Assembly: GCA_002840435.1 (NCBI GenBank)
Contig: PHAT01000004.1
Span: 248,001-312,000 of the forward strand
Origin: Deltaproteobacteria bacterium HGW-Deltaproteobacteria-6
GTDB lineage: Bacteria; Desulfobacterota; Syntrophia; Syntrophales; Smithellaceae
DNA length: 64,000 nt
Direction of reading: 5' to 3'
The notes under the pieces were generated by a model. It saw nothing but the letters and a program-made list of their open reading frames with translations. It was not told the origin of the DNA and did no database searches. The position numbers were made by a program, and so were the translations under genes. Positions 2,930 through 34,962 of the stretch are shown here, one piece after another (positions within the stretch are counted from its first letter, which is position 1; every line of letters starts with the position of its first letter).

Positions 2930-4960
2930 CTAAACATCCCAGATGAAAATCACACCGCTTGTCGGGAAAATCCATTCTTCATGGGATATCCTGATATGGA
3001 TGGATTTGCCGCGGCTGGCCTGGATATCCGCGTGAGGATGACGACCGGCAAAAAAGCTTTCCGCCCGGACATTTTTCAAATTTGCGTTTTCATAATTGAA
3101 GTTGATCGAAAGCCCCCGCGTCGGGTATAAAAGATAGACGGGAAACGTCCGGTTGCCTTTGGCTTTCTTGGTGAGGATTTCGATTTCGATTTTGACTTCC
3201 CGGTTGATTTTTGATTTGAGTTTCTCGCTGCCGCACCAGACTTCGTAGCCCCGGCCGGTCTTTTTGGCTTCAATGATGGGGATATCCTCGCCGTCAATGC
3301 TCATCTTCTCAACGGTAAAATCGCGTTCCATCACCAGATCATCACCGCCCAGAATCCAGCGGTATTCGCAATGTTCGTCTTCAATCAGGGCTTCCAGCTG
3401 CGCGCTGTCCGAGGCGCAGCCGATCATAAAAATATCGCTGCGGATCGTTTTTTTATATTCGACATGGGTTCTCAACTGGAAATACGCCTCCGCGCGCCGC
3501 CTGTGTTCGGCGGCGTCGGGCAGCGGCGCAATGGTAATATCATAGCGGAAAGAAGAACGCAGTTCAAGCTGCCGGTCTTCCTTGCCGAACAGGGTTTCAA
3601 ACATTTCATAGTATATGGCGTCGCCGAGTTCTTCATTGCGCGTGCGGGTCTGTAAGCAATGGCGGATGATATTGTCGATGCGCGCAATGGATTTTTCTTC
3701 ACCGGGAACAAATACCCGTCTCAGCCGGGGTTCCACCGCATCGGTTTTCCCTTTTTGCAAAAAGACGCGCGGCGCGCGTTTGCCTAGCGCGCAAAGCACT
3801 TCATAGCTGATTGTCTTTGCTTTTGCGGCAATTTCGCTGGCGCTGATATATTCGGACTGCTGCCTTCCCAGCAAAACCACTTCATCGCCGATGTCGCAGT
3901 CCGGAATATGCGTGACGTCCAGCGTGCACATGTCCATGGACACCCGCCCGATAATCGGCGCGCGCCGGCCGCGAATCAGCGCTTCACCCTGATTGGAAAG
4001 AATAAAGGGATAGCCGTCGCCATAGCCCACCGGGATAGTCGCCACACGGGTTTTGTTTTTGGTGATATATGTTCTGTTGTAGCCGATGCCGTAGCCCGCG
4101 GGAAATTCCTTGACCAGCACGATAGTCGTTTTGAATGACATAACCGGCAGCAGCGTGGCCCTGGCTTGGGTTTCCTCTGACGGATAGATACCGTAAGTCA
4201 TAATGCCGGGACGCGTCATTTCCAGTTTCAGCGCCGGGTAATTCAGGATCGCGCCGCTGTTGTCCATGTGTTTGACGGGGATGTCGATGCCGAGGCGCTG
4301 CAATTCGGCAATAAGCCCGGAGAATAATTGCCACTGCTGATCATTATAAGCGGTCATGACTTCGCTCGATGCAAAATGGCTGAACAATCCCTCCAGGGTA
4401 ACGTGGGAGAGGGTTTGAATGGTGCGTATCAAATCCAGGGCCTCACTGTGCATTGTGCCGCCCCGTCCCATGCCGGTATCGACTTCCACATGAACGGATA
4501 AAGTCCGTGAGGCGCGGGCCAGTTGTTCTTCGAGCGCACGGACAAATCCCGCGTCGGAAACAGACGGCGTAAGGTGGTATTTGATCATGTCGGGGATCTC
4601 CGACAAAGTGGAAGGTCCCAGAATAACAATGGGGGCTTCGATGCCACTCACGCGCAGCTGAACACCTTCATCGGCATTGGCCACACCCAGCATGCGGGCG
4701 CCCGCGCGCAGTGCGGCGTGGGATATTTCAATAGCGCCGTGACCGTAGGCGTCCGCCTTGACGGTCTGCATAAAATCAACCCCATCGCCGATCAGCCGCT
4801 TGATTTCCCGGAGATTGGCGGTAAAGTTGTCCAGGTCCACTTCCACCCAGCTGCGATATTTTTGTTCGTTTCTCAGAGGCATATTTTGTTTCAAATCCTC
4901 ATGGATCAAAGCATCGTGTGCCTGTCCTTCCGGTGTGCGCCCACGGGATGGCACCGTCAC
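2930..4960 (-). CDS. alr: Alanine racemase with long C-terminal extension of unknown function
   Basis: The first 400 residues are a complete PLP-dependent alanine racemase (L-Ala to D-Ala for peptidoglycan). The PLP lysine is K68 in VKADAYGHG; the Tyr-bearing motif GYGIGYNRTY, the GYGDGY element and GRVSMDM (residues about 290-350) are intact. Residues about 400-676 are an extension absent from ordinary 360-390-residue racemases: a charged helical part (RIDNIIRHC, NEELGDAIYYEMFETLFG), then a beta-rich, basic part rich in KIEIEI-type strands. I do not recognise it. The start used is a GTG at 4960; an ATG at 4882 (residue 27) has GAGG 14 bases upstream and begins nearer the conserved domain, so it may be the true start. 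A GC-rich hairpin sits just upstream (4986-5002). Confidence 0.88.
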   Translation of the reverse strand: MTVPSRGRTPEGQAHDALIHEDLKQNMPLRNEQKYRSWVEVDLDNFTANLREIKRLIGDGVDFMQTVKADAYGHGAIEISHAALRAGARMLGVANADEGVQLRVSGIEAPIVILGPSTLSEIPDMIKYHLTPSVSDAGFVRALEEQLARASRTLSVHVEVDTGMGRGGTMHSEALDLIRTIQTLSHVTLEGLFSHFASSEVMTAYNDQQWQLFSGLIAELQRLGIDIPVKHMDNSGAILNYPALKLEMTRPGIMTYGIYPSEETQARATLLPVMSFKTTIVLVKEFPAGYGIGYNRTYITKNKTRVATIPVGYGDGYPFILSNQGEALIRGRRAPIIGRVSMDMCTLDVTHIPDCDIGDEVVLLGRQQSEYISASEIAAKAKTISYEVLCALGKRAPRVFLQKGKTDAVEPRLRRVFVPGEEKSIARIDNIIRHCLQTRTRNEELGDAIYYEMFETLFGKEDRQLELRSSFRYDITIAPLPDAAEHRRRAEAYFQLRTHVEYKKTIRSDIFMIGCASDSAQLEALIEDEHCEYRWILGGDDLVMERDFTVEKMSIDGEDIPIIEAKKTGRGYEVWCGSEKLKSKINREVKIEIEILTKKAKGNRTFPVYLLYPTRGLSINFNYENANLKNVRAESFFAGRHPHADIQASRGKSIHIRISHEEWIFPTSGVIFIWDV

Positions 4961-5089
4961 GCCGCCTCGCGAGACCTCCTGCCCTGCCGCCCGCAGGGCG
5001 GCGACCTTCAGATGATCAGATGGTCACGTTATCTATCAAGGGGTCGGCATTGAAGTGTAAGCGACAGGCAATCTTTATGCATGGATAAA

Positions 5090-5115
5090 GATTTCTCCCT
5101 GCGGTTTAAATAACA
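5090..5115. repeat. Single-arm copy of the 17.3-kb inverted repeat
   Basis: GATTTCTCCCTGCGG at 5090-5104, followed by TTTAAATAACA, closely matches the right arm of the palindromic repeat at 17306-17383 (GATATCTCCCTGCGG). The partner arm is missing. It lies between the divergent-from-each-other 3' side of the cyclase gene and the 5' side of alr. Confidence 0.4.
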
Positions 5116-5129
5116 AAGGGGAATCGTTA

Positions 5130-7394
5130 TTACTTTTTCGTCATCACAAACACGCCGTCCCAGGGTTCAGCCGGCGGATGTTCCTTTAGATTTTTGCACC
5201 GTTCGATATACATGGTCGCCGGGAAATCGCCGGGCCGGATGTCCAAAACGGTCTGGAATGCAGCAATCGCCTCATCCCATTTCCCTTCACGATACAGCAC
5301 CAGACCTTTATCAAAGGCATCAATCATGGATTTAAAATCGGGTTCATCTTTCTTTTCCGCAAGCAACTCATAGATTCTTACCGGTTTGACTTTTCCTTTG
5401 ACACGCACAAAGTCCAGCTCGCGACAGCACATGACATCTTTCACTTTTTCATACGTAAACTCACTGATGATGATATTGGTTCCGTATTCCTTGTTGGTGC
5501 CTTCAAGCCGGGAACCCAGGTTGACCATGTCTCCCATCACCGTATAATCAAAGCGCATCTCCGAACCCATATTGCCGACGTTCATATCGCCGGAATTGAC
5601 GCCGATGCCGATGTTAAAGACGCGGCGCCCTTCCTCTTTCCATTTCTTCTGCAGCCTGTGCAGCTCCTGCATCATGGCCAGCGCGGTGAGGCAGGCGCGT
5701 TTGGCGTGATCCGGCTGATCGAGCGGCGCGCCAAACACGGCCATGATGGCGTCGCCCATATACTTGTCGAGCAGGCCTTCATACTCGAAAACCTTGTTGG
5801 TCATGGCGGTAAGGTATTCGTTAAGCAGCGCGACCAGTTCCTGCGGCGTCAGCCCTTCCGACATGGTGGTAAAGCCCCGGATATCCGAAAACAGGACGGT
5901 CAAGTCTTTCTTGTCGCCACCGAGTTTAAGCTTGGCGGGGTCTTTGAGTATTTCGTTGATCACCGAGGCGTTCAAATAATATTGAAATGCGCCGCGTATT
6001 TTTTTCTTTTCCCGTTCTTCTTTAAAATAATGGTAAATCGTGATGCCTAGATAAATCGTCGCCATGGTCAAAAGCGGATAGACCAGGTTCAACCAGATAT
6101 TGAACTTGAAGAAAACAAAAAAATTGATGGCGGCAAAAGCGGCAATCATCAGAAAAGCGGCGATCATTCCGGCTATCGGCCGCAGGCGTGGAATCAAAAG
6201 ACCCAGCACCAGTCCGAAAAAGATAATCGCGAAAACATCAATAAAGCGGGTTAAAGAGGAATGGGTGAGGAAATTCTGATGTAAAATATTATCAATGACG
6301 TTGGCGTGGATTTCGACACCGGAAAAGACGGCGGAAAAAGGCGTCACGCGCAGATCATAAATGCCAATGGCCGTCGCTCCGATCAGCACAATCTTATTGC
6401 GGAAAGTGTCCGGCGGAATTTTTTCGGAAAGAATTTCGGAAATGGAATAATGGGGAAATGTCCGGGGTGGTCCCATGTAATTAATCAGCAATCGGCCGGA
6501 TTCATCCGTAGGAATTACCGTATTTCCGATGGCAATGCTCTTAGCGCCATATTCTTCAAGATTCAAAGCCAAACCCGGAAAATCCCAATAGGCATGGACT
6601 AATGAAACGGCCAGCGAAGAATAACAATTGTTTCCAAACGCGATGATCAGCGGCGACCAGCGGTTGGACCCGTCGCTGTCGGGCAGCATGTTGAAATAGC
6701 CGTTGTTTTGCGAGGCGCGGGCGATCTGTGGAATGTTGGTTTCCGGCGCATAAGCGTGCGGCAGATACGATTCATCGGGTTTATCCGTCGAGGAGTTGAT
6801 CATCCCATAGCGTGAATTTTCTATAAGCGCGGTATTCTCGGCGATTTTCTTCTCTGTGAAGTGCGCCAGCTCCTTGTCGTTGCCCTTGCGCGGAAAATGA
6901 AAAAAGTAACCCAGTGTTACATTTTTTGCGTTTTTAATGGATTCGGCCAGAATCGCGTCCGTGTCGGCAACGGTTCTTTTCCTGCGCAGCAGACTGACGA
7001 CGTTGGGATTGGAAATGCCGCTTTTTTTCATTTCGGCGGCAAGCGCGTCAATCATTTTAATATTGGCATTGGCATCCGGCTCCGCAAAAACGATATCAAA
7101 GCCGACGGCCTTCGCGCCGCCCTTTTTTAACTTGTTGACCAACTGGGCGATCACCGTCCGCGGCCAGGGCCAGCGCCCAAGTTCCGCCAGGCTTTTTTCA
7201 TCGATGACGGCAATGACGGTTTCACCGCCGGTTGGCAGCTGGCCGCGAGACGCTATGCGCAAATCCAGCGTTTTGAGTTCCACTACCCGCAAAAACTGAA
7301 AATCGGACAGGAACAACACCAGCGCAATCAGCAGCACAAAGATGGTAATCTTGAGCGGCGTGACCTGTAAAATGGTTTTCAATTTTTGATTCAT
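5130..7394 (-). CDS. CHASE2-domain class III adenylate cyclase
   Basis: A membrane-bound cyclic-nucleotide cyclase of about 754 residues. After one N-terminal membrane helix comes a periplasmic CHASE2 sensor (TVIAVIDEKSLAELGRWPWPR to the NKIVLIGATA element), then three membrane helices, then the cyclase domain. The cyclase has both metal Asp residues (LFSDIRGFT and GDAIMAVFG), the Lys in LDKYMGD, and the Asn/Arg transition-state pair in GDMVNLGSRLEG, consistent with an active ATP cyclase. The C-terminal 60 residues form one TPR-like helix pair (FDKGLVLYREGKWDEAIAAF). The ATG at 7394 is preferred over one ten codons upstream because AGGGAAG lies about nine bases before it. Monocistronic by position. 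Confidence 0.88.
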   Translation of the reverse strand: MNQKLKTILQVTPLKITIFVLLIALVLFLSDFQFLRVVELKTLDLRIASRGQLPTGGETVIAVIDEKSLAELGRWPWPRTVIAQLVNKLKKGGAKAVGFDIVFAEPDANANIKMIDALAAEMKKSGISNPNVVSLLRRKRTVADTDAILAESIKNAKNVTLGYFFHFPRKGNDKELAHFTEKKIAENTALIENSRYGMINSSTDKPDESYLPHAYAPETNIPQIARASQNNGYFNMLPDSDGSNRWSPLIIAFGNNCYSSLAVSLVHAYWDFPGLALNLEEYGAKSIAIGNTVIPTDESGRLLINYMGPPRTFPHYSISEILSEKIPPDTFRNKIVLIGATAIGIYDLRVTPFSAVFSGVEIHANVIDNILHQNFLTHSSLTRFIDVFAIIFFGLVLGLLIPRLRPIAGMIAAFLMIAAFAAINFFVFFKFNIWLNLVYPLLTMATIYLGITIYHYFKEEREKKKIRGAFQYYLNASVINEILKDPAKLKLGGDKKDLTVLFSDIRGFTTMSEGLTPQELVALLNEYLTAMTNKVFEYEGLLDKYMGDAIMAVFGAPLDQPDHAKRACLTALAMMQELHRLQKKWKEEGRRVFNIGIGVNSGDMNVGNMGSEMRFDYTVMGDMVNLGSRLEGTNKEYGTNIIISEFTYEKVKDVMCCRELDFVRVKGKVKPVRIYELLAEKKDEPDFKSMIDAFDKGLVLYREGKWDEAIAAFQTVLDIRPGDFPATMYIERCKNLKEHPPAEPWDGVFVMTKK

Positions 7395-9937: not shown

Positions 9938-11836
9938 TCATCCATCATTTGGCACCGGATATTGACCGGAATCCTGAATCGCCGCAAGGCATTTGCCGTC
10001 AATCGTTCGGCGCACGGCATAGGCCAGTTGAACCATTTCGAAGGGTTTCATGAGAAACTCCCGGATACCCAGTCTGGCAGCCTCCGCCCTCGATATATGT
10101 TCACTGTACCCTGTGCAGATGATAATGGGCAGATCCGGCCTCAGCTCCAGCATTTTATGCGCCAGCTTATCACCGGTTAACTGCGGCATGCTCATATCGG
10201 TAATGACGGCATCAACCCGCTCGGGGGCAGCGGCGAAGAAATGATAGGCCTCCATGCTGCTGGTCTTAACAATTACCTGATATCCCAGGCTCTCCAGCAT
10301 TTCACCGGCTATCTCGCCCAGGGCCTGTTCGTCATCGACATACAGAATGGTTTCCGTTCCGGTGGGCATGACGTCCTCTTCCCGCGCGTCTTCCGGCTTT
10401 CTCCGGTCTTCAACCTCCGGGAAATAGACGTCAAAAGAGGTTCCTGTTCCCTGCGCGCTGCGGCAGACAATGGCGCCTCCGTGGCTTTTAACAATGCCGT
10501 GCACAACTGAAAGGCCCAGGCCCGTTCCGCGGCCAGCCTCTTTCGTGGTGAAATAAGGTTCAAAGACCCGCGCAGAAACCTCGGGTGTCATGCCGTGACC
10601 GCTGTCGCAGATCGTCATTTTAAGATAGGGGCCTGATGGAAGTTGCAGCTCGCGCGCCGCTCTTTGTTCATCCATGTACTCTCGTGTGAGGCGGACCTCC
10701 AGCACGCCGCCGTCCTTGTCCATGGCATGAACAGCGTTGTTTAATAGATTCATGATGATCTGATGGATATAGGTTGAACTGGACAGAATCAGGCCGGAGT
10801 CGGCGTAATATTCTTCAACTTTAATATTGGCCGGAATCAATGAACGCATCATCTTGAGCGCTTCCGAAACAGACTCGCTGAGTTTAAGAGGCGCCACGCT
10901 GATTTCAGACTTGCGGCTGAAGGTCAGAATCTGGTTGACCAGCGCTTTGCCGCGTTCACCCGCTTTCAGGATTTCGGCAACTTTCCTGCGGCTTTTATCA
11001 TCCGCGCCGGGATCGGAAAGCGCCAGTTCCGAATAACCGATGATGGCGGATAAAATGTTGTTGAAATCATGAGCGATGCCGCCCGCCATTGTTCCGATGG
11101 CTTCCATTTTCTGGGCCTGATCCAGTTCGCCCTGAAGACGATCTTTTTCTTCCTCGATTTTCCGCCGTTCGGAAATCTCGGTGCGCAGCGCTTCATTAAT
11201 GGCTTGTAATGCCTCTCTCTCCTGCTCGAGCTGTATGCGCAAATTATGTTCATGGAGGAGCAGCTCGCTCATCCGGTCCAGGAGCAGACCGACAGGCAAA
11301 CCCGCAAACAGGGAAACAAGCGAGATGCTGACAATGAACATAACCCACAAGCTGAAAGGCTCCGTATAGATCGCCGCCCATGATGACAGATATAGACCGG
11401 CCTGCCAGTATAATACCATCAGCAAAATGAGATTGATCACCGTGGTCACAATGGCGGCGCGGACGCCGAATAGAAAAGCGGCGCTGACGACAGACATCAC
11501 CAGCCAGCCCGGCCGGGCGTAAAGAGGCCCCAACGTAATAATAAAGGTCAGCATCAAACCATAAAGCAGGATAAAAAAAATTTTAATAAAATGGGGCGTA
11601 TATCTTATCCACAGAAGCGCGGTGATAAACGCGATGATAAAGAGTTCTAAAATAATCAGGTCGTATTTCCCCTGCTTAATGTAGGTTGGAAGTGAAAATA
11701 TCAGTCCGACGGGAAGGATGACTAAGGCAAAGAAAAGCATGAACCTGATATAGTATACGCGCCAGCCTTCGAGGTCTTGAAACTCCTTGAGTTCTTTGCC
11801 GGGCAATATTCTTTCGAAAAGCTGTTTTAACGTCAT
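9938..11836 (-). CDS. Membrane hybrid histidine kinase with C-terminal receiver
   Basis: A 632-residue sensor kinase. Residues 28-185 hold about six membrane helices with little periplasmic sequence, so the signal is likely sensed in or near the membrane. A coiled coil (190-245) leads to the HisKA domain with phospho-accepting H256 in GGIAHDFNNIL. The ATPase domain shows the N box NLLNNAVHAM, G1 DSGHGM and G2 GRGTGLGL. A linker joins a receiver domain with phosphorylatable D547 (DAVITDMSMPQ) and Lys in FLMKPF. No separate response regulator is adjacent, so output may be via a distant phosphotransfer partner. GGAG lies seven bases before the ATG. Confidence 0.88.
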   Translation of the reverse strand: MTLKQLFERILPGKELKEFQDLEGWRVYYIRFMLFFALVILPVGLIFSLPTYIKQGKYDLIILELFIIAFITALLWIRYTPHFIKIFFILLYGLMLTFIITLGPLYARPGWLVMSVVSAAFLFGVRAAIVTTVINLILLMVLYWQAGLYLSSWAAIYTEPFSLWVMFIVSISLVSLFAGLPVGLLLDRMSELLLHEHNLRIQLEQEREALQAINEALRTEISERRKIEEEKDRLQGELDQAQKMEAIGTMAGGIAHDFNNILSAIIGYSELALSDPGADDKSRRKVAEILKAGERGKALVNQILTFSRKSEISVAPLKLSESVSEALKMMRSLIPANIKVEEYYADSGLILSSSTYIHQIIMNLLNNAVHAMDKDGGVLEVRLTREYMDEQRAARELQLPSGPYLKMTICDSGHGMTPEVSARVFEPYFTTKEAGRGTGLGLSVVHGIVKSHGGAIVCRSAQGTGTSFDVYFPEVEDRRKPEDAREEDVMPTGTETILYVDDEQALGEIAGEMLESLGYQVIVKTSSMEAYHFFAAAPERVDAVITDMSMPQLTGDKLAHKMLELRPDLPIIICTGYSEHISRAEAARLGIREFLMKPFEMVQLAYAVRRTIDGKCLAAIQDSGQYPVPNDG

Positions 11837-12389: not shown

Positions 12390-13607
12390 ATGTTTGAATA
12401 CACCATAACTCATAAAGATTCCTGCCAGTGCGTGACGGCAAAAGGGCGCATTGATGCGCTTTCCGCGTCGGAAATTCAAAAAGTTTTTCAGCAATTGATT
12501 CTGGAAGGCGGGCGGGTATTGCTTGCCGATCTCTCGGGGGTTCATTACATCAGCAGCGCGGGACTACGGACGTTCATCAGCGCGCAAAAAGAGCTCAAAA
12601 AAGTGGGCGGTGAAATGCTGCTCGCGGGCCTTACGCCGCAGGTGCAGGACGTCTTTAAAGTCAGCGGCCTGGATCAACTTTTCCGCATCGTGCCTGGCGT
12701 TGATGCAATCGGAGCGCAATCCTCCGCCGGTTCGGAGGCCGCACCCGGCCATCAGGTGCGGACCGATCAGATTTCCCTTACGTACATCGAAAAGGACGTT
12801 CCCCCGGGTTCTCTTTTTCTGATTGGTTCAACCGCTAAAATGGAAAACGCCTCCTATTCTGAAACAGACGTGGTGGCCGTGCCGGCTTCCCTAATGCGCT
12901 CGGGCTGCGGACTGGCCGCGCTGGGCGACAGCTTTGCGGAATATCAGAATCTTTTCGGCGAGGCGATGGTGGTGAACGCCAACTTTTTTTACTACCCCGC
13001 CGTCCGCCATCCGTCCGTCGATTTTATGCTGGGGGCCCACGCGGACCCCGCCGCCGCCTACAAGTTTCTGCATGGCTTCGGCGTCAATGGCGAGCCGCGG
13101 TATCTCCTGTCTTTCAAAAGCGAAAACGGCGCGTTGGATCTCACGGCGCTGATCAATAGTTTCCTGACCATTTCCCGGGCGAATCTCATCAGCGTGACAA
13201 TGCTTGCCGAAAGCAAAGGCATCTGGGGCATGAACATTAAAAGACCGCCGGTGGAAAACCCGCAAACCGCCCGGCGCGAAAATATTTTCAGCAGCGGATC
13301 CTTTTCCGACTGGTTTGACTTTCCCGTGGAACCTATGCATGCCGGAGCGGTTGTCGCCGCAACGGGCATCATCACACGCAATCCCGGGGAGCTGCCCGGG
13401 GCGATTCAGCCTCTTTTTTCCGGCGGCAATTTATTTCATCTGCACGGCGGCATCTTTGACAAAGCGCCCATCAGCAATAACCTTCAGGATTTCGACCGAG
13501 AACTGGCGCGCGTTTTCAATGAACTGGACGTGTTTAAAATTCAGCACCTCCTCGGACAATCCCGGTTTGCCGGCGGTTTGGCAAGCCTGACGGAAATCGG
13601 GGTATAA
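12390..13607 (+). CDS. STAS-domain protein with uncharacterised C-terminal domain, first gene of an ABC operon
   Basis: A 405-residue protein. Residues 1-105 are a STAS domain of the anti-sigma-factor-antagonist kind, with the phosphorylatable Ser motif YISSAGLR (S55/S56). Residues about 120-405 form a second domain I do not recognise; it has alternating hydrophobic strands (GSLFLIGSTA, DVVAVPASLM, AVVAATGIIT) and no membrane segment. Two bases separate its stop from the GTG of the fused permease gene, so it is translationally linked to the transporter. A STAS head gene is unusual for this ABC family. Inference: it senses state by phosphorylation and controls transporter activity or a signalling output tied to substrate occupancy. 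The ribosome-binding site is weak. Confidence 0.75.
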   Translation: MFEYTITHKDSCQCVTAKGRIDALSASEIQKVFQQLILEGGRVLLADLSGVHYISSAGLRTFISAQKELKKVGGEMLLAGLTPQVQDVFKVSGLDQLFRIVPGVDAIGAQSSAGSEAAPGHQVRTDQISLTYIEKDVPPGSLFLIGSTAKMENASYSETDVVAVPASLMRSGCGLAALGDSFAEYQNLFGEAMVVNANFFYYPAVRHPSVDFMLGAHADPAAAYKFLHGFGVNGEPRYLLSFKSENGALDLTALINSFLTISRANLISVTMLAESKGIWGMNIKRPPVENPQTARRENIFSSGSFSDWFDFPVEPMHAGAVVAATGIITRNPGELPGAIQPLFSGGNLFHLHGGIFDKAPISNNLQDFDRELARVFNELDVFKIQHLLGQSRFAGGLASLTEIGV

Positions 13608-13609
13608 CC

Positions 13610-16429
13610 GTGGAACTCTGGGTCGGCGCGATCAACCTCGGTTTTTTATACGCCTTTATGGCGATGGGCGTCTTCATCACATTCCGCATTCACGATTTCG
13701 CCGATATCACCGTGGATGGCAGTTTTGTCACCGGCGCAGCCATGACGGCCGTCCTCATCGTTACGGGCGTCAATCCCTGGATCGCGCTTTTGCTCTCCTT
13801 TCTTACGGCATCCGCCGCGGGTGCGATCACGGCGCTGATCCACACCCGCTTTCAAATCAACGGGCTTCTGGCCGGCATCATGGTCATGACCGGCCTGTAT
13901 TCCATTAATCTGCACATCATGGGCCGATCCAATATTCCCCTGCTCAACGAACCGGGACTCATCGCGGGCATGAAAGACATCAACCCCGGCCTGCCCTATG
14001 AAATATGGCTCTGCCTGATCTTCGGCGCGGTCATCACCGCATTCTGGCTTATCATCTCATTGTTTTTCCGGACGGACTTCGGCATCTCCATGAGAGCCAC
14101 CGGCAACAATCCCGCCATGGCGGCCGCTTCCGGCATCAACGTCAATGGCATGAAAATTTTCGGCATCGCGCTGGCCAACGGACTGGTCGGCATCTCCGGC
14201 AGTCTGGTCGCTCAGTATCAGGGCTTTGCCGACATCGGCATGGGCATCGGCTCCATCGTCTTCGGACTGGCGGCTGTCATCATCGGCGAAACGATCCTGC
14301 CTTTGAGGTCGATCTGGGCCAAGACCCTGAGCGTCATTGCCGGCTCCATCATTTTCCGCCTCATGGTGGCCCTCGCACTGTACGTCGGTTTGAATCCCAT
14401 TGATTTGAAGCTGATCACCGCCGTCTTCGTCCTGGCGATCCTCGTCGCGCCGACAATCCTTCAGAAAAAACCGGCAAAAACCCCTGCTGCCGCATCGCGT
14501 TTATCTTCGTTTTTTTCCGGAAAGAAGCCGGTCATTGCCTTTGGCCTGCTGATCGTTCTGGCGCTGGGCGGGGTTTTCGCTTACACGATGTCCGGGAAAA
14601 AACTTTCCACCGATCAGCCGAAGCTGCGCATCGGCGTGGTGCAACTGAGCAATCATGATGTGCTCAATAGGACGCGGGACGGCTTCATCCGGGAGCTGGG
14701 CCGGCTGGGCTATGAAGACGGCCGGAACGTGACCCTCTATCTGGAAGATGCGAACGGCGACATGGCCACGGTCAACAGCATCCTGGACAAATTTCTGCAG
14801 GAACGCGTGGATGTGGTGGTGCCCATCTCCACCGGCTGCACGCAGGCGGCCATCAACAAGATCAAAGACAGACCCGTCGTTTTTGCGACCGTCGCGAATC
14901 CCTTTCTCATCGGCGCAGGCACATCCGATACGAATCATTTGCCCAACGTCACCGGTGTTTATGGAGCGGTGCCGATGGATAAAATGATTGAACTGACCAC
15001 CGCGATCCTGCCGGGAAAAATCAAAGTCGGCTGTATCTGGGACCCGTCTCAGGTGAACGCGGTATTCAATGTCCGACAGCTACAGGCCCAGATCGCCAAG
15101 CACCCCGAAATTACCTTTGCCGGCGCCACCGTCACCGGATCGTCGGAAGTTCAGCAGGCCGCGCAGGCATTGACCGGGCAGGATATCGACGCGTTTGTGC
15201 TGGTCACGGATAATATCGTTTTTTCCGCCCTGGAATCCGTCATCAAAGCAGCCGATGCCCGCGGGATACCGGTCATTCTGAGCGATGTGGAACGCCTGGA
15301 TGACGGTGCTCTGGCCGCCTGCGGATACGACTATACCCAGAGCGGCACGCAGGCGGCGCGTCTGGTTGCCCGCATCCTCAAAGGGGAAAGCCCGTCACGG
15401 ATTCCTTTTGAACGCTACCGGAACCTGACCATCGGCTACAATCCCGATGTCGCCAAAAAGCTGGGGATTAATATACCACGGGCTATGCTGGCTAATGCCA
15501 CACCGATCACGGGCGGCGCAAAAAAAGATGCAGGGTCCAAACGCCTCGCGCTCTTTGTCTTTTCCGACAGCACCCTTTTGGAACTGACTGCCAGGGGCAT
15601 TCAAGATGAACTTAAAAAAAGCGGCGTTTTGCGGGAACACAATATGACCGTCGATGTGAAGAACGCTCAGAATGAATACAGCACCGGACAGGCGATTGTG
15701 CAGGACATTGTCCGGCAGAATTATGATTACATCATCACGGCTTCGACAATGTCATTGCAGATAACGGCCAACGGCAACAAAAAGATCCCCCACATTTTCG
15801 GCGCGGTGACCGATCCCTACCGGATGGGCGTCGCCAGAAACGCAGCCGATCACATTCCGAATATTACCGGTGTAGCCACGTTCCAGCCCGTAGAATCCAC
15901 GATTCGCGCGATACGGGCCATTTTCCCGAAGGCAAAACGGATCGGATTGGTCTGGAATCCCTCGGAAGCCAATTCGGAAGCCTGCACGCTGAAAGCGCGG
16001 GCCGCGGCCCGCCAATATTCCTTTGAACTGGTGGAAAGAACCGTAACCCGTACGGATGAAGTCAAAGACGCGGCGATGGCCGTCATCAACGCTGGCGTCG
16101 ACGTGTTTTTCACGTCCGGCGACAACACCGTGATTCTGGCATCAGCGACCGTCGCACAGGTCATGCAGGAGCACAAAATTCCCTATTTCACCAATGATCC
16201 TTCCGACATCGAACGCGGCGCGTTCTTTTCCATCGGGGCCGACTATTATCAGGTAGGTCGGGAAACGGCCAAAATGGCTGTTCGCGTGATCAACGGCGAC
16301 AATCCCAAAAACATTCCCATCCGGGAGTACGTACCTGAAGCGGTGGGCGTTTCACTTGCGCTGGCCGCACGCTACGGCGTAACCATTCCGGCCGATCTCC
16401 TGAAAAAAGCAACCGTGGTAAAGAGGTAA
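13610..16429 (+). CDS. ABC transporter permease fused to two tandem substrate-binding domains (TrpXY-like family)
   Basis: A 939-residue fusion. Residues 1-290 are a permease of the branched-chain/simple-sugar type (BPD_transp_2), with about eight membrane helices and the ITVDGSFVTGAA and GISMRATGNNPAMA motifs typical of TrpY-like permeases. After a linker, a further membrane helix (about 306-327) leads to two homologous periplasmic-binding domains of the ABC_sub_bind (TrpX-like) family at about 335-640 and 642-939, each starting with an RIGVVQLSN or RLALFVFSD strand and containing a P(N/x)ITGV element. In this family the three parts are normally separate proteins. Having two binding domains in one chain means a permease dimer would display four. 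Starts with GTG, two bases after the STAS gene. Confidence 0.85.
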   Translation: MELWVGAINLGFLYAFMAMGVFITFRIHDFADITVDGSFVTGAAMTAVLIVTGVNPWIALLLSFLTASAAGAITALIHTRFQINGLLAGIMVMTGLYSINLHIMGRSNIPLLNEPGLIAGMKDINPGLPYEIWLCLIFGAVITAFWLIISLFFRTDFGISMRATGNNPAMAAASGINVNGMKIFGIALANGLVGISGSLVAQYQGFADIGMGIGSIVFGLAAVIIGETILPLRSIWAKTLSVIAGSIIFRLMVALALYVGLNPIDLKLITAVFVLAILVAPTILQKKPAKTPAAASRLSSFFSGKKPVIAFGLLIVLALGGVFAYTMSGKKLSTDQPKLRIGVVQLSNHDVLNRTRDGFIRELGRLGYEDGRNVTLYLEDANGDMATVNSILDKFLQERVDVVVPISTGCTQAAINKIKDRPVVFATVANPFLIGAGTSDTNHLPNVTGVYGAVPMDKMIELTTAILPGKIKVGCIWDPSQVNAVFNVRQLQAQIAKHPEITFAGATVTGSSEVQQAAQALTGQDIDAFVLVTDNIVFSALESVIKAADARGIPVILSDVERLDDGALAACGYDYTQSGTQAARLVARILKGESPSRIPFERYRNLTIGYNPDVAKKLGINIPRAMLANATPITGGAKKDAGSKRLALFVFSDSTLLELTARGIQDELKKSGVLREHNMTVDVKNAQNEYSTGQAIVQDIVRQNYDYIITASTMSLQITANGNKKIPHIFGAVTDPYRMGVARNAADHIPNITGVATFQPVESTIRAIRAIFPKAKRIGLVWNPSEANSEACTLKARAAARQYSFELVERTVTRTDEVKDAAMAVINAGVDVFFTSGDNTVILASATVAQVMQEHKIPYFTNDPSDIERGAFFSIGADYYQVGRETAKMAVRVINGDNPKNIPIREYVPEAVGVSLALAARYGVTIPADLLKKATVVKR

Positions 16430-16432
16430 ATC

Positions 16433-17245
16433 ATGATCACCCTCACCAACATCCATAAGAAATTCAATGCCGGCACGCAAAATGAAGTGTACGCCTTGCG
16501 GGGAATTGATCTCACCATCCGCGAGGGCGAGTTTGTCACCATCATCGGCACGAACGGTTCGGGAAAATCGACCCTGCTCAACGTGCTTTCCGGGACTATT
16601 TCCCCCGACATGGGAAGCGTGTTCATCAATGACCGGGACGTCACAAAACAGAAGGATTATCAACGGGCTCATACGATCTCACGGGTTTTCCAGAACCCTT
16701 TCATGGGAACCGCCCCGGATATGACCATTGCGGAAAATCTGTTGATTGCATCGCTTCGGGGCCGGAAGCACCTTCTGCGGATGGGGCTCACCGCCCCGCG
16801 CCTGGCCTCGTTCCGCACACATGTGGCCCGCCTGGAGATGCAGCTTGAAGACCGGCTGGACAATATCATCGGCTCGCTTTCCGGCGGGCAGCGTCAGGCT
16901 GTAAGCCTTTTGATGGCCGTCATCCTCAGGCCGGATGTGCTGCTCCTGGATGAACATACCGCCGCGCTGGACCCCAAATCGGCGGCCCAGATTATCGCCC
17001 TGACCAAAGCGTTTGTGGAAAGAGAAAACCTGACGACCTTCATGGTGACGCACAGCATGCAGCAGGCCCTCGAACTGGGCTCCCGGACGCTGATGATGCA
17101 CAAAGGACGGATCATCGACGATATTTCCGAAAAGGAAAAAAATCAGATCACGGTGGATAACCTGCTGGACAAGTTCGCCCAGCTTCGCAAAACGGAGAAA
17201 CTGACCGATGAGATGATTGAACAACTCAGAAGGGACTATCTGTAG
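16433..17245 (+). CDS. ABC transporter ATP-binding protein (partner of the fused permease)
   Basis: A 270-residue ATPase with all nucleotide-binding motifs: Walker A GTNGSGKST (residues 39-47), signature LSGGQRQA, Walker B LLLDEHTAALD and the switch His in VTHSM. It starts three bases after the permease-SBP fusion gene stops, so the two are in one operon. The sequence type (RVFQNPFMGTAPDMTIAEN) matches ATPases that accompany TrpX/TrpY-like transporters. Imported substrate cannot be told from the ATPase; aromatic amino acids or other small organic ligands are candidates from the family. Confidence 0.88.
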   Translation: MITLTNIHKKFNAGTQNEVYALRGIDLTIREGEFVTIIGTNGSGKSTLLNVLSGTISPDMGSVFINDRDVTKQKDYQRAHTISRVFQNPFMGTAPDMTIAENLLIASLRGRKHLLRMGLTAPRLASFRTHVARLEMQLEDRLDNIIGSLSGGQRQAVSLLMAVILRPDVLLLDEHTAALDPKSAAQIIALTKAFVERENLTTFMVTHSMQQALELGSRTLMMHKGRIIDDISEKEKNQITVDNLLDKFAQLRKTEKLTDEMIEQLRRDYL

Positions 17246-17393: not shown

Positions 17394-20300
17394 TTACAAC
17401 TTAACGGGCAGGACCACTTCGACGATGTGTTCTTTGTGATCATCCACCAGCGCAATCTCCGCACCGGGTATGGTTAAGCCGTCTGACGTCATGACGGCAT
17501 GATCCGCTTCTCCTGCGGCCTGACGGATGACGATATGATAAAGTGTTTCCCCGTACCGGTAATGAATTTTAACGTCTTCCCAGGATTGTGGCAGACACGG
17601 CGCAAAACTCAGCCTGCCGTTTTTCAGAGTGAGTCCCATCAGCGATTCCACGATCAGCCGGTACATCCAGGCGGAAGAGCCGGTAAACCATGTCCACCCG
17701 CCGCGCCCGATATGCGGCGCGACCGCATAGACGTCTGAAGAAATCACATAGGGCTCGACTTTATAAATTTCCACCTCCTCAGGCGTCCGGGCATGATTGA
17801 CCGGATTGATGATGTCCAGCACATCCCAGGCGCGTTTCCGGTCGCCGAGCCTGGCAAAAGCCATGGCCGTCCAGATGGCCGCATGCGTGTATTGTCCGCC
17901 GTTTTCCCGCACACCCGGCACATAACCTTTAATATAACCCGGCTCCATCTCCGACTTATCGAACGGCGGGTCCAGGAGCTGAACCAGTTTTTTATCCCGA
18001 TGCACCAGAAATTCATCTACCGCGTTCATCGCAAGGCGGGCTCTGGCTTCATCTCCCGCTCCGGACAGCACGGACCAGCTCTGGGCCACCGAATCAATGC
18101 GGCATTCCGTATTGGTGCACGATCCCAATGATAATCCTTCATCGCTGTATGCGCGCCGGTACCAGCCGCCGTCCCAGCCTTCCCGCTCAACGTTGTGCCG
18201 AAGTTGCGCCGCTTCCTTCCCGCACAAATCGGCAAACGGTCCATCGTCTTTCAGGCGGGCAATTTCCGCAAACCTGACAAGCACGTCATACAGAAAGAAA
18301 CCCATCCAGATACTTTCGCCCTTCCCCTCATCCCCGACTTTATTCATGCCGTCATTCCAGTCGCCGGACCCCATGAGAGGCAGCCCGTGACTGCCAAATC
18401 TCAAGCCTCTCCGGACAGCCCGCACACAATGGTCATATAAACTGCTTTTTTCATCTGACACACCCGGCAGATCGTAATAGGAATCTTCATCCGCCCGGAC
18501 CTGGCGTCCTTCCAGGAAACGGATGCTTTCATTTAAAATTCCGGAATCACCGGTGCTGTCGATATAGCGGCTGACGGCCAGAGGCAGCCACAGGTAATCG
18601 TCCGAACATTGCGTGCGCACACCCCGGCCGGTAGGCGGATGCCACCAGTGCTGGGCGTCACCCTCTGTAAATTGGCGGCTGGCGCACAAAAGCAGGTGCC
18701 CGCGGACAAGGGCCGGTTCGGCATAAACCAGCACCATAACATCCTGCAACTGGTCGCGGAAGCCGAAAGCGCCGCCTGACTGGTAATAACCGCTCCTAGC
18801 CCAGAGCCGGGAAGACAGTGTCTGATATATGAGCCAGCCGTTCGTCAGAATATTGAGTGACGAATCGGGTGTCTCAATCTGCACGACGCTCAGCGTTTTT
18901 GCCCAATATCGATGCACGATTTCCAATTCCTTTTGCGCAACCGCCGATCCCCGGAAGCTCTCCACCGTTTTACTGGCATCGTCTGCGCCCCTTCTCCCGG
19001 TGACACCCAACCGGAAAATGGCCTCGTGCTCCTGCCCGTCCGCCAATCCAAAGGTCGTCTGGATGGCGCCGCAGGGATCAAGACCGGCGCCGACACGGCC
19101 CGACAGATGCTCCCGCGTCAACGCCTGCGGCCGGGACAGTTCTCCGTTGCGGCCGATAAATTCGTCCCGATCGCACGTGAGCGTCCGCGTCGGATCATCC
19201 CCGTCGAAAAAAGCCACCCGGTCGGCAAAATCCGTGTTGTAAGGATTTCTGGCAAAAAGCGCCCCGCTTCCCGCATCCACCTCCGTTGTGACGTGCATGG
19301 CTGTCTTCGGCTGCAAATCACCCAGCACCCACTCCAGATAACCGGTCACGGAAAGGGTGCGGTTACGCCCCGATTCATTCGTCACTTTTAAAACCATAAA
19401 CTTGACCGGCGCGTTCAAGGATACATAGATCCATAATTCCGATTTGATGCCGTCTTCTCTGTGCGTAAAAACACTGTACCCGAAACCGTGGCGGCAGACA
19501 TAAGGCGTTGCACCCGGGCAGGGGAGCGGCGTGGGAGACCAGACCTGCCCGGTTTCTTCATCGCGGATATAAAACGCTTCGCCGCTTGGGTCGCTCACCG
19601 GATCGTTATGCCACGGGGTAAGGCGGTATTCATGGGCATTTTCACTCCATGTCGATGCCGAACCGCTTTCGGAAATAATTGATCCGAAGCGGGCGTTCGC
19701 CAGAACATTCACCCAGGGCAGCGGCGTTTTCTCCCCGGGTTTTGTGATGATGACATATTCACGTCCGTCAGGAGTAAATCCCCCGAGCCCGTTTTTGAAA
19801 ATCAACCCGGGATAAGAAACCGCCGCCTCGTCCTGGCTTTTCGCGCCGGGATTGCGGAGCGGTTTCAGAAGCGGCACAGGCGTATCCTTCTTTTTGCGGC
19901 GGCTGATCTGCTCCTCAAGCGTCCCCATATCATCCCTGATGATGACGCGGGCAACCGTTTGAAAAAGAAGCCGGTCTTCACTGGATATCTGATCACCCGG
20001 CCGCACAAAAATGCCGCCCGGCCGATCGGCGGCCCTGGTTTCCATGCTGGTGGCAATCAGTCCCGCAATCTGGTCGTGAAGCGCCTGCCGGTAAATGGCA
20101 TTATCCTCGTTCCAGATGACCAGATCGACGGCCAGACCTTTTAAACGCCAGTAGGCATGCGCCTGCTGGAGCTGACGGACCAGTTCAATGTTGGCATGAT
20201 CGCCGATCTGCAAAAGCACAATGGGTAGATCGCCGGAAATCGCATAGCCCCATAAGCCGGACTGTCCGCGGCGGTTTCTCACAATGATCTTCGGATCGGC

Positions 20301-23300
20301 CCGGAACGACGCATTGGCGTAAATAACGGAACCGGCCAGACGTCCGTAAAGCTGCGCGTCGTTGTGTGTCGCATTGATTTGCCTGAGCGTGATCTGGCTG
20401 TGCGTCCAGGCCAGAGTAAAGACGCGGTCGGCCAGGCGGTTGTCTGAATATTTTTCAACAAGGGCCAGCGCTCCGGCGCGGGTTTCGGCAATACCGGACA
20501 CAATATCGATGGTTGCCGATTCCCCGGCGGCAAGTTTGACCGGACGGCGAATCGAAACAACCGGATCCAGAACGGAGCCTGCCGTGTTCGAGAGGGCCTG
20601 CACCCCGTCCGCCGACCTGTTCATCGCCACAGGACAGGACAGCGTGTTGCCGCGGCCGACAAACTGCAAACGATCCGTTTCATAAGAGACCTCGCGGCCA
20701 TCCGTGCCGTGCACCACCATTAAATGAAACGTCCAGTAGGCGGGTTCATCCTTGGAGCGCGGTCTTCGCGTGCAGAGAATCGCCTGGCGATCACGGATAA
20801 TTTCCGTCTGAACAAAAAGATTGGAAAACGCCGGATGGATCGCATCGGCCGCAGGCGTCGCGATGACCACTTCCGCGTAACTGGTGATATCCAGTTCACG
20901 GCGTTTTCTGGAACGGTTGGTAATGCGGATGCGCCTCAGTTCCATATCGTCTTCCGGCGACACGGCGATCTGAGTGTAGGTGTTGATTTCATCATCGCGC
21001 CTGCGAAACTCAACTTTCGCATCGGAAAAAATAGCCTCGTACCGGTCCGGCTTCTTCAGCGTCGGCTGATAGGCATTGGACCAGAATTCTCCCGTGACCA
21101 CATCGCGGATATAGCAGAACATGCCCCATGGATCGCGGGTGGCGTCTTCACGCCAGCGCGTCACCGCCAGATCTTTCCAGCGGCTGTATCCGGAGCCGGC
21201 ATTGGTAATCATGACATGGTATCTGCCGTTGGACAGAAGCTGCACCTCCGGCACGGATGTATCGGGAGTTTCGATAACGCGTGACGGAACTTTCTGCGGA
21301 CCCGCCGCCTTCCGGATATTCGTATCGTCGGTGATTTGCCGGTAGAAGGAAAGGGCTTTGGGAATGCGTTCCTGAAGCAAAAGCATTGCCGATTGAAACA
21401 TCGGCTCGGACTCAAAACGCTTCTGCATCGGGCGGTCCAGGAGGAGATGGGCCATCGACAGCAGGCTCATCCCCTGATGATGCGACATGAAAGACCGCAC
21501 GGCAACGCTTTCAACGCCCGCGGGCAGACGTGAGGCGGTGAAATCCAGCGCTTCATAAAAGCCGTATGTCCCCAGCATGCCTTTCGCGGCCAGACGCTGG
21601 AGATTCACGCAGGCCTCCTGAGGCGCGATCATCAGCGCCAGCGCTGAAGCGTACGGTGCCACCACCAGATCGTCGCCGAGCCCCCGTTTAAGACCCAGAC
21701 CGGGGACGCCGAAGGCGCGATACTGGTAGTTGAGATGGACATCGATGTTATTATAACCGGATTCTGAAATGCCCCAGGGCACGCCTCTTTTCTCCCCATA
21801 CGCTATCTGCCTTTTCACCACCGCCTTGTAGGTTTGGTCCAAGAGCGTGTTTTCATAATTCGGCATGATCAGAAGCGGCATCAGGTACTCAAACATCGAT
21901 CCGTCCCAGGAAAGGAGAACGGGATCACCTCCCGGATTGGTCAGCATGCGTCCCAGGGCAAACCAGTTTTCCTTCGGCAGCTGCCCCTCGGCAATGGCGA
22001 CAAAACTGCAGAATCTGGCCTCGGACGCCAGCAGGTCATAGAAGCTCCGGTCCCTGCGGCGTTCGCCGACGCTGTACCCGATCGTCAACAGCTGACGTCC
22101 CTTGTCATAGAGGAAGCTGTAGTCCATGCCGGCCAGTTCCCCTGCTCTTTTAACCAGGCAATTGATGGCGGCCAGTCTTTCCTGCGCCTTCCGGTTTCCT
22201 TCCATGACCAGTTTCTGAAACTCCGCAAACCACGCCTGTTCTCGGCTGTCGGGAGCAGGCCCGATCATTTCAGAAGCGGCGGAAAGCCACCCCGCGGACC
22301 GGTCTGAAACATCCCGCAGAGTGGGGATGCCGATTTCCTCAAAAATACGGGCAGCCCTGCCGGGCGGACCACTCAGCGTCACCCAGGGACAGAATACAAT
22401 CAGTTCATCCGCCGCATCACGGCATTGATGGACAAGGGACTGCGCCCAGCCATATGCCTGATCTTGCCGACCCGCCGTGAGCGATTCGGCAAGGATGGAG
22501 GCGGACTGCGCCAGCATATCGAGACGCAGCCACAAGTCGTTGAGGGTCGCCCCCTGGAAAGCCATGAGTGAATCGAGATGTTTTTTCAATTCAGCCAGCT
22601 CATTTCCGGATGCATTTCCGGCCATGTCTTTGAGGACCCTCCAGGTGTCAGCAAGTCCTTCCGCCAATCGACTGCCCGGCAAATTCCTGTCGGGAAGATC
22701 CAGAAGACCCTGCCTCAGCGTCAGCAGAGAACCCCCAAGATTACCACTGTCCACGGTCGATATATAATGCGGCGGCAGCGTTCTTAAACTTTGCGTGTCA
22801 TACCAGTTATAAAAATGGCCCCGGTGGCGATCCAGTTTTTCCATGGTCCCAAAAGTGTTCGCGGTGCGGCTGATCAGTTCACCGGCTGTCATGTAACCGA
22901 AATCATAAGCGGATAAATTGGAAAGCAGCGCCAGTCCGATATTGGTGGGTGATGTGCGATGGGCAACCACGGCGCCGGGATGCTCCTGATAGTTGTCCGG
23001 AGGCAGCCAGTTGTCCGCCGATGCAACAAACGTTTCAAAAAACGCCCAGGTTCTGCGGGCGGCTTTTCTTAAGAAAACGATCTGCTCGTCTTTCAGGATG
23101 ATCCCCTCTTTTACGGAAGGCCGGCTGACCCACCAGGTAATGACAGGAGACAAAAACCAGAGGGCCAGCACCGGCGCCGCCGCACATATCGCGGCGGGCG
23201 TCCCCGACCAGAGCAGATAAGTCCATACCGCGGCGGACAGGAAAGGCGCTATCCACATGGTCCTGCAGGATGCCGCCAGATCATTTCCGGCGCGATGCGC

Positions 23301-26132: not shown

Positions 26133-26204
26133 TTTTTGTCTCCTTGTTGGCGAACAGAGGCGGCCGTCATCTCCCGGAAAAACATCTTTCTTGCCGGGCA
26201 CATT

Positions 26205-34196: not shown

Positions 34197-34604
34197 TCAG
34201 CGATTCAAAAACGTCATGGTCAGGACATTGCTGTCGCCTTCACGCCGATAGGCCACCTTGTCGGTCATCTTGCGGATAAAAAACACACCCATGCCGCCGA
34301 TTCTGCGTTTTGTCAGATCGGATTCCACATCCGGGGCGGCAAGGGACAGCGGATCGAAAGAAACGCCCGCATCGCGGATTTCAATGGTCAGCGACGGATC
34401 ATCTGAAACCAGACAGCGTATTTCGACCTCTCCCTGATCCCGGGCATAGCCATGCACGAACACATTGACCAGCGCCTCTTCCACAACCAGTTCGATCCGA
34501 TTCAGAGCGCTCTCGGAAAATCCTCTTTTTTCAGCCTCGGTCCTGATAAAAGTCAGCAACTCGTGCAGGCTTTCCACCCGGGCGGGCATTTGTTTGATCA
34601 GCAT
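34197..34604 (-). CDS. RsbW-like anti-sigma factor / serine kinase (HATPase)
   Basis: A 135-residue protein with the GHKL ATPase fold of anti-sigma serine kinases: N box RIELVVEEALVNVFVHGY (near 37-54), G1 IRDAGVSFDP and G2 RIGGMGVFFI. In partner-switching systems such a kinase phosphorylates a STAS antagonist and otherwise binds a sigma factor or effector. The STAS gene lies 22 bases upstream on the same strand, giving a two-gene operon. No PP2C phosphatase or sigma factor gene is nearby, so the target is encoded elsewhere. Confidence 0.88.
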   Translation of the reverse strand: MLIKQMPARVESLHELLTFIRTEAEKRGFSESALNRIELVVEEALVNVFVHGYARDQGEVEIRCLVSDDPSLTIEIRDAGVSFDPLSLAAPDVESDLTKRRIGGMGVFFIRKMTDKVAYRREGDSNVLTMTFLNR

Positions 34605-34626
34605 AGACCATCACTGCGGCTGGACG

Positions 34627-34962
34627 TTATCGCACGGCGTCTTGTGCCGCTCCGAGGTTGTCGAAGGAGGGGATCAGAGCGATGAATCCCGAAATGGTGA
34701 ACACGTCTTTCACGTTATCCCGAAGCCTGGCCATACAAAGCTTTCCGTCACGCGCTTTCATTTTCTTAGCGGTGGTAAGAAATACTCTCAGGCCGGCGCT
34801 GCTGATGTACTCGAGCCCGTCCAGATCAAAAATCAGCTTTTTTCCCGGTTGTTCAAACCACGAATTGAGCTGCTCTTCCAGTTGAGGAACGGATACGGCG
34901 TCCAGTCTGCCTTTAATCGCAAAAACAGAGATATCTGACTCATTGGTGACAACAATTTCCAT
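34627..34962 (-). CDS. STAS anti-sigma factor antagonist (RsbV/SpoIIAA-like)
   Basis: A 111-residue single STAS domain with the phosphorylatable Ser motif YISSAGLRVF (near residue 53) and the usual beta-alpha order. It is the likely substrate of the kinase encoded 22 bases downstream: dephosphorylated, it would bind the kinase and free its target. AAAAGGAG lies seven to eight bases before the ATG. Divergent from paaK. Confidence 0.9.
   Translation of the reverse strand: MEIVVTNESDISVFAIKGRLDAVSVPQLEEQLNSWFEQPGKKLIFDLDGLEYISSAGLRVFLTTAKKMKARDGKLCMARLRDNVKDVFTISGFIALIPSFDNLGAAQDAVR

Follow-up and report, generated by a model that had tools for sequence, protein, structure and literature searches.

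Importers of the TrpXYZ/CD0873 type are built from three protein families, namely ABC_sub_bind, BPD_transp_2 and ABC_tran. The cassette described here lies in a 64,000-nucleotide stretch of DNA from Deltaproteobacteria bacterium HGW-Deltaproteobacteria-6 (hereafter the window) and uses the same three families. It differs from these importers in that its binding domains (one to three copies among relatives) are fused to the permease, that a gene for a STAS protein with a metal-type domain has been added, and that its ATPase belongs to a separate clade. In addition, the first of its two binding domains (SBD1) carries Asn430 where solved relatives have the TDP Asp.

GlnP belongs to the BPD_transp_1 family, whereas the permease of the present cassette belongs to BPD_transp_2. 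Tandem binding domains covalently tethered to a transmembrane domain are already known in principle from GlnPQ, where they are N-terminal to the membrane domain (PMC8025302); here they are C-terminal and joined through an extra helix. The available part of that source mentions no STAS partner for GlnPQ (PMC8025302).

STAS proteins are known as subunits of ABC transporters mainly from MlaB. MlaFEDB resembles our cassette in that its ABC operon includes a STAS protein and its ATPase has a C-terminal tail with a tyrosine (for MlaF, PMC7367683), but it is an MCE lipid transporter rather than an importer with binding domains, and the STAS protein found here has an extra domain. Authors writing in 2016 considered the Mla system unique in having a STAS subunit (PMC5016091), and a 2020 paper on MlaFB, which also mentions an effect of SLC26 STAS domains on CFTR, found no further example of a STAS-ABC complex in the solved structures (PMC7367683). 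With the RsbU/RsbV/RsbW and SpoIIA systems the cassette shares a STAS domain with a conserved serine and, near some of its copies, RsbW-like and SpoIIE genes; the likely target here is an ABC transporter, and no sigma factor was noticed, incidentally, among the recurring neighbours. A limited literature search, covering few subscription journals, found no published description of an importer that combines a STAS/metal-domain protein with tethered binding domains.

Gene organization of the cassette

The cassette consists of three genes on the forward strand: the STAS head gene (12390-13607), an open reading frame of 405 aa; the permease/binding-domain fusion gene (13610-16429), which encodes 939 aa from a GTG start; and the ABC ATPase gene (16433-17245), which encodes 270 aa. 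The STAS stop codon is followed by the fusion gene after 2 bases, and the fusion gene by the ATPase gene after 3 bases. ABC_sub_bind (383 bits), BPD_transp_2 (88 bits) and ABC_tran (108 bits) all passed the Pfam gathering scores. The gene coordinates and Pfam matches thus bear out the preliminary description of a STAS gene leading an ABC operon, two bases from the permease gene.

GC content showed no sharp step at the cassette, and the sequence preceding it was AT-richer. A promoter/terminator scan revealed no promoter-like site on the forward strand between position 11800 and the STAS gene, and no Rfam match reached the gathering score anywhere in the 64-kb window. Upstream lies a divergent MASE11 hybrid histidine kinase/response regulator gene (9938-11836, reverse strand); another hybrid kinase, which matches MASE11 weakly (12701-14554), occurs near an unfused relative of the cassette, L169. 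Downstream, a single frame of 2,935 aa (17394-26201, reverse strand) looks, by eye, like a protein of the cyclic glucan synthase type.

Architecture of the permease fusion

In the AlphaFold2 (AF2) model predicted for the fusion, with a mean pLDDT of 79, the permease helices end at residue 285 and are followed by a linker of low confidence, a further helix (residues 306-328) and two binding folds; with a pTM of 0.39, the packing of these domains is not trusted. The BPD_transp_2 permease domain occupies residues 1-285 (13610..14464, forward strand), with a Pfam match at residues 7-275 and AF2 helices at residues 2-285. Binding domain 1 (SBD1; residues 339-632, 14624..15505, forward strand) has the TrpX/CD0873 fold, and binding domain 2 (SBD2) extends over residues about 644-939 (15539..16426, forward strand). 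Pfam likewise finds two ABC_sub_bind stretches, the better at residues 341-631, and with the AF2 model confirms a permease fused to two tandem binding domains.

The extra membrane helix that had been proposed between permease and binding domains (residues 306-328, 14525..14593, forward strand) was recovered both in the AF2 model and as a hydropathy peak at residues 308-326. Since the NCBIfam TrpX model (NF041285) matches residues 314-630 of the fusion beginning at model position 5, the helix is apparently a kept TrpX signal helix. The whole fusion scores 378.3 bits against this model, below its curated cut-off of 390. The protein looks like a permease joined to a TrpX whose signal helix has been retained as a membrane crossing, and this helix would place the binding domains outside.

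An assembly join inside the fusion, set beforehand as a test, was ruled out because relatives have the same layout, including a protein of 939 aa in another assembly of the genus (G056) whose permease is 94% identical. In a survey of 395 genomes from the phylum, the best 15 permease matches, the window included, all lie in a frame that continues into a binding domain; in G334, a contig end cuts the frame inside that domain.

Predicted ligands of the binding domains

Structural matches of the binding domains include proteins solved with Phe, Trp and Tyr bound (3lkv, 3lft and 6hni). In CD0873, tyrosine is selected through Glu263, with Tyr279 at a second site; in relatives that bind Phe or Trp, the first of these positions is Ala, and the Trp binder has Gln instead of Tyr (PMC6816091). 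At these selectivity positions, in alignments judged by eye, SBD1 has Asp559 and Tyr575 (each in 19 of 20 rows), while in SBD2 residue 863 is variable and Tyr879 is present in 14 of 14 rows. Asn430 of SBD1 (14 of 20 rows) stands at the position where SBD2 keeps the TDP Asp, residue 735, in all 14 rows. Because the two domains differ at the selectivity and TDP Asp positions, they probably bind different compounds, and the residues also indicate that SBD2 probably resembles an ordinary aromatic amino acid site more closely than SBD1 does.

A STAS protein with a decarboxylase-fold domain

The STAS domain of the head protein occupies residues 1-105 (12390..12704, forward strand; Pfam STAS, 67 bits, residues 6-105), and Pfam finds no match beyond it. 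Residues 1-117 match SpoIIAA/RsbV structures with Z-scores up to 19.0 (1vc1), while the NCBIfam MlaB model gives 12.9 bits against a cut-off of 90. Ser56, within the motif YISSAGLR, was invariant in all 34 rows that have letters at this position. Loss of the phosphorylatable serine was considered as the SSAGL motif seemed shifted; it was dropped because the profile alignment sets Ser56 on the first serine of the SpoIIAA DSSGL motif, which we take to be Ser58 of SpoIIAA.

Residues 140-405 (12807..13607, forward strand) form a second domain. The preliminary description regarded this C-terminal region of about 280 residues as an unknown domain, but its fold is recognisable. In the AF2 model of the head protein (36 sequences; pLDDT 87.4, pTM 0.83), these residues resemble acetolactate decarboxylase (ALDC; 6j92; Z 17.9 over 199 residues, rmsd 2.7) and human PTD012 (1xcr; Z 14.9 over 232 residues, rmsd 4.2), and these matches led us to reject the notion of a domain with no known fold. 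His350, His352 and His386 are identical in all 35 rows reaching them and Glu191 in 36 of 36; the H350-x-H352 motif, H386 and E191 are the residue set that a metal site of the decarboxylase/PTD012 type would need. PTD012 binds zinc through three histidines (PMC12435205). Eight ALDC sequences from related genomes contain an invariant Gly-Glu, an HxH and a further histidine in the same order as the head protein.

At the sequence level, the domain stands apart from these proteins. The ALDC profile (PF03306) matched neither the head protein nor 15 C-terminal domains at E-values up to 1, and an hhalign comparison of the domain with ALDC showed no significant relation (probability 0.4%, E 0.14). In a non-significant alignment to the ALDC profile, FGE191 falls on the DGE motif of ALDC. 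The spacing from HxH to the third histidine is 34 residues here (H352 to H386) and 11 in ALDC (H172 to H183), the intervening stretch being filled by a helix in the AF2 model (residues 365-378), and only the present domain is fused to STAS. A search for DUF1907/PTD012 in 99 genomes found none, but its controls were silent too, which makes it uninformative. Hence, the C-terminal domain is predicted to share the ALDC/PTD012 fold with a metal-type residue set, while lying outside the ALDC family by sequence.

Distribution of the cassette and its relatives

A permease match was found in 63 of the 395 genomes surveyed in the phylum, and the loci of the best 30 were examined. The first 15 were all fused, each with a STAS gene directly upstream (15/15, window included), so that the domain order and STAS head gene that were to be sought in relatives are indeed present there. 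Of the other 15, three had a distant STAS gene and 12 had no visible STAS gene, although one of the latter (L037) offered only 116 upstream bases. The STAS C-terminal domain was detected in 10 of 155 genomes of the window's class and in 3 of 20 of the same genus, several of them incomplete; this patchy occurrence suggests horizontal transfer.

Searching genome contigs with only the C-terminal domain of the STAS protein as query yielded 38 loci, nearly all from metagenome assemblies. Their phylum labels, taken as given, were Deltaproteobacteria/Thermodesulfobacteriota, Planctomycetota, Aminicenantes, Omnitrophota, Acidobacteria, Ignavibacteria and Bacteroidota, with two vaguer ones. The permease was also present in 36 of the 38 loci (missing in L081 and in L094, where a contig end truncates the locus), which indicates that the cassette is conserved. 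Complete fusions carried two binding domains in 14 loci, three in ten and one in seven; of the remaining loci, one was broken (L087), four were cut by contig ends and two had no permease. A frame of 641 aa lies between the cassette genes in L075. The STAS gene of L056 (5395-6621) is split by a stop codon, and the fusion of L087 (6236-9074) is spread over two frames, which in both cases may reflect decay or sequencing error.

Unfused relatives were also found. L049 and L050 encode a separate two-domain binding protein, and L170 (4169-7936) and L171 (8449-12219) a separate protein of 1,255-1,256 aa with four tandem ABC_sub_bind domains, in each case beside a STAS/decarboxylase-fold gene, a permease and an ATPase. 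The pair of binding domains seen in the window is thus one state among several, with one to three in fusions and four in an unfused relative. Accordingly, the earlier estimate of four binding domains per dimer holds for the presumed homodimer of the window's protein but is not universal.

In three loci (L081, L167 and L168) that encode a STAS/decarboxylase-fold protein, tblastn of the stretch examined found no such permease, binding domain or ATPase, so this protein is not tied to the transporter in every locus. The L167 protein (4062-6443, reverse strand) joins the unit to a TCAD9/APH-like domain of the kinase type and lies beside large sensor-like proteins. The occurrence of the unit apart from this transporter is in keeping with a module for signalling or sensing that was recruited by the transporter.

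A conserved tail on the STAS-linked ATPases

We compared the ATPases of 29 fusion-type loci (nine of the 38 loci were dropped as they had no near-full ATPase), six unfused STAS-linked loci and 20 ordinary loci. A C-terminal tail with a near-terminal tyrosine (Tyr269 in the window) was present in 29/29, 6/6 and 0/20 of these, respectively. Thr40, Ser43, Ala156 and Ser208 were common to the STAS-linked ATPases, and each occurred in at most one of the 20 ordinary ones. In the ATPase tree, which includes one very long ordinary row (L141), STAS-linked sequences made up one side of one branch (support 99/95) and the fusions formed one clade (100/99). As far as this sample shows, the tail was gained once, and since the STAS-linked ATPases form one clade, their tails do not count as independent evidence.

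The C-terminal extension of MlaF inserts Tyr261, Leu265 and Leu266 at the MlaF/MlaB interface (PMC7367683). The parallel between this docking and the tail of the STAS-linked ATPases is suggestive only, and it may point to control of the transporter rather than to a transceptor.

Partner-switch genes near the cassette

RsbW-like genes occurred in 8 of the 38 cassette loci and SpoIIE-like genes in 9, either of them being present in 14, compared to none of 20 ordinary TrpXYZ loci (Fisher p 9.5e-4; p 0.002 with a reduced case count of 12/36). The contrast is somewhat circular, as some queries were drawn from case loci L072 and L077; L094 and L099 carry the same assembly name, locus lengths vary among the 38, and presence in a locus can mean several kb off, as for SpoIIE in L080 and L083. 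In the other 24 loci, neither gene was found in the stretch examined, some stretches being short.

A dCache-HAMP-SpoIIE gene adjoins the cassette in L067, L072, L073 and L074. L072 and L073 have a complete set of a stand-alone STAS protein, an RsbW-like kinase, an NMT1 binding protein and a dCache-HAMP-SpoIIE phosphatase; L067, labelled Syntrophaceae, has the same set without NMT1. In L169, which is outside the 38-locus count, STAS, RsbW-like and GAF-SpoIIE genes follow the unfused cassette. NMT1-type genes adjoin the dCache-HAMP-SpoIIE gene in L072 (6776-7765), L073 (5548-6546) and L074 (14430-15425), and this adjacency suggests a periplasmic ligand input to the switch.

In the window, 17 kb from the cassette, a stand-alone RsbV-like STAS gene (34627..34962, reverse strand) and an RsbW-like HATPase_c_2 gene (34197..34604, reverse strand) are candidates for a partner-switch component and its serine kinase. 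No other HATPase_c_2 match in this genome comes near that of the kinase candidate (102 bits, the next reaching 32); the genome has five STAS matches, and a copy of the stand-alone STAS gene, 68% identical, lies directly downstream of the cassette in L067. No SpoIIE phosphatase was found in the window near the pair at 34197-34962; the three SpoIIE matches of this genome are all on another contig (contig 1), the best being a 407-aa protein that begins, by eye, like a response regulator. A Kup-type K+ transporter gene (32201-34030) adjoins the pair.

Proposed mechanism and alternative explanations

Going beyond the anatomy of the locus, we infer docking, phosphorylation, a direction of control, a ligand and a metal, and the most economical model has the STAS domain docked on the ATPase and switched through Ser56 and the decarboxylase-fold domain. 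The cassette would encode an ABC importer of the aromatic-amino-acid type, derived from TrpXYZ, whose permease carries one to three tethered binding domains. A dedicated subunit in the cytoplasm, in which a STAS domain open to phosphorylation is joined to a metal-type domain of the decarboxylase fold, would regulate it. This subunit would most likely dock through its STAS domain on the ATPase as MlaB does on MlaF, helped by the conserved C-terminal tail. Ser56 would be phosphorylated by an RsbW-type kinase and dephosphorylated by a SpoIIE-type phosphatase, which would switch docking and hence ATPase activity. The decarboxylase-fold domain may respond to, or convert, a metabolite in the cytoplasm that is related to the compound taken up, and its ligand- or metal-dependent state would be a second input to the switch.

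We tentatively favour such a regulated importer, set by a serine switch and a cytoplasmic metabolite, over the alternatives below. The conservation of the cassette among loci found through the STAS C-terminal domain, the STAS gene upstream of all 15 fusions, the invariant Ser56, the partner-switch genes in 14 of 38 loci, the tail of the STAS-linked ATPases and the decarboxylase fold with its three histidines and glutamate speak for it; the 24 of 38 loci with neither RsbW nor SpoIIE, the three loci that hold the unit apart from the transporter, and the location of this genome's SpoIIE genes on another contig speak against it. A fuller form, in which an RsbW/SpoIIE partner switch has an ABC importer as its output, turning uptake on and off after translation, with a metal-type domain reading the imported metabolite and as many as six tethered binding domains in each presumed dimer, is possible but open to more doubt.

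Metabolic coupling, where the decarboxylase-fold domain would be an active metal enzyme acting on the incoming compound and STAS would serve only as a dock, thereby channelling transport into the first catabolic step, appears rather unlikely. Glu191 and the three histidines are invariant in 27 rows, including relatives at about 20% identity, which a degenerate sensor would not need, and PTD012, of the same fold, has been identified as a zinc-binding 3-dehydro-L-gulonate decarboxylase (PMC12435205). However, the lack of any sequence relation to decarboxylases in hhalign and Pfam, the ALDC-unlike spacing of the third histidine and the partner-switch neighbours, which point to signalling, weigh against an enzyme.

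The preliminary description had proposed coupling to a phosphorylation-dependent sensor, possibly as a transceptor. The coupling itself gains from the invariant Ser56 and from the partner-switch genes found near cassettes and at no ordinary locus, but the ATPase tail rather suggests control of the transporter. A transceptor would signal inward when loaded, the state of the transporter deciding whether the STAS protein is free for an RsbW kinase and thereby releasing an output unrelated to transport. The RsbW, stand-alone STAS, SpoIIE and NMT1 genes adjoining several cassettes would suit this, as would the kinase-like fusion of L167, where no transporter of this kind was found in the 12 kb examined. 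Yet no separate output gene emerged among the scanned families recurring in at least 4 of 48 stretches: cassette genes aside, a scan of ten members showed sensors, kinases, phosphatases and NMT1 proteins, and two more recurring clusters beyond those scanned look like reverse-strand frames over the cassette. We regard a transceptor as improbable.

Equally improbable is an MlaB-like assembly factor, in which the STAS protein would be needed for the stability of the ATPase, with no regulated phosphorylation or sensing. Such a role would agree with the ATPase tail and with the requirement of MlaB for MlaFE assembly (PMC5016091), but it leaves the large conserved metal-type domain and the partner-switch neighbourhood unexplained. 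Finally, that the fusion is an annotation or assembly artefact can be practically dismissed: broken frames occur in two relatives (L056 and L087), but the same fusion recurs in many assemblies, including a single-contig genome (G169).

Implications

The regulated importer that we favour brings together an acceptor serine, a metal-type domain and partner-switch genes, which would make post-translational control of uptake directly testable in this family. The fusions with one to three tethered binding domains provide a natural series for asking why importers carry several.
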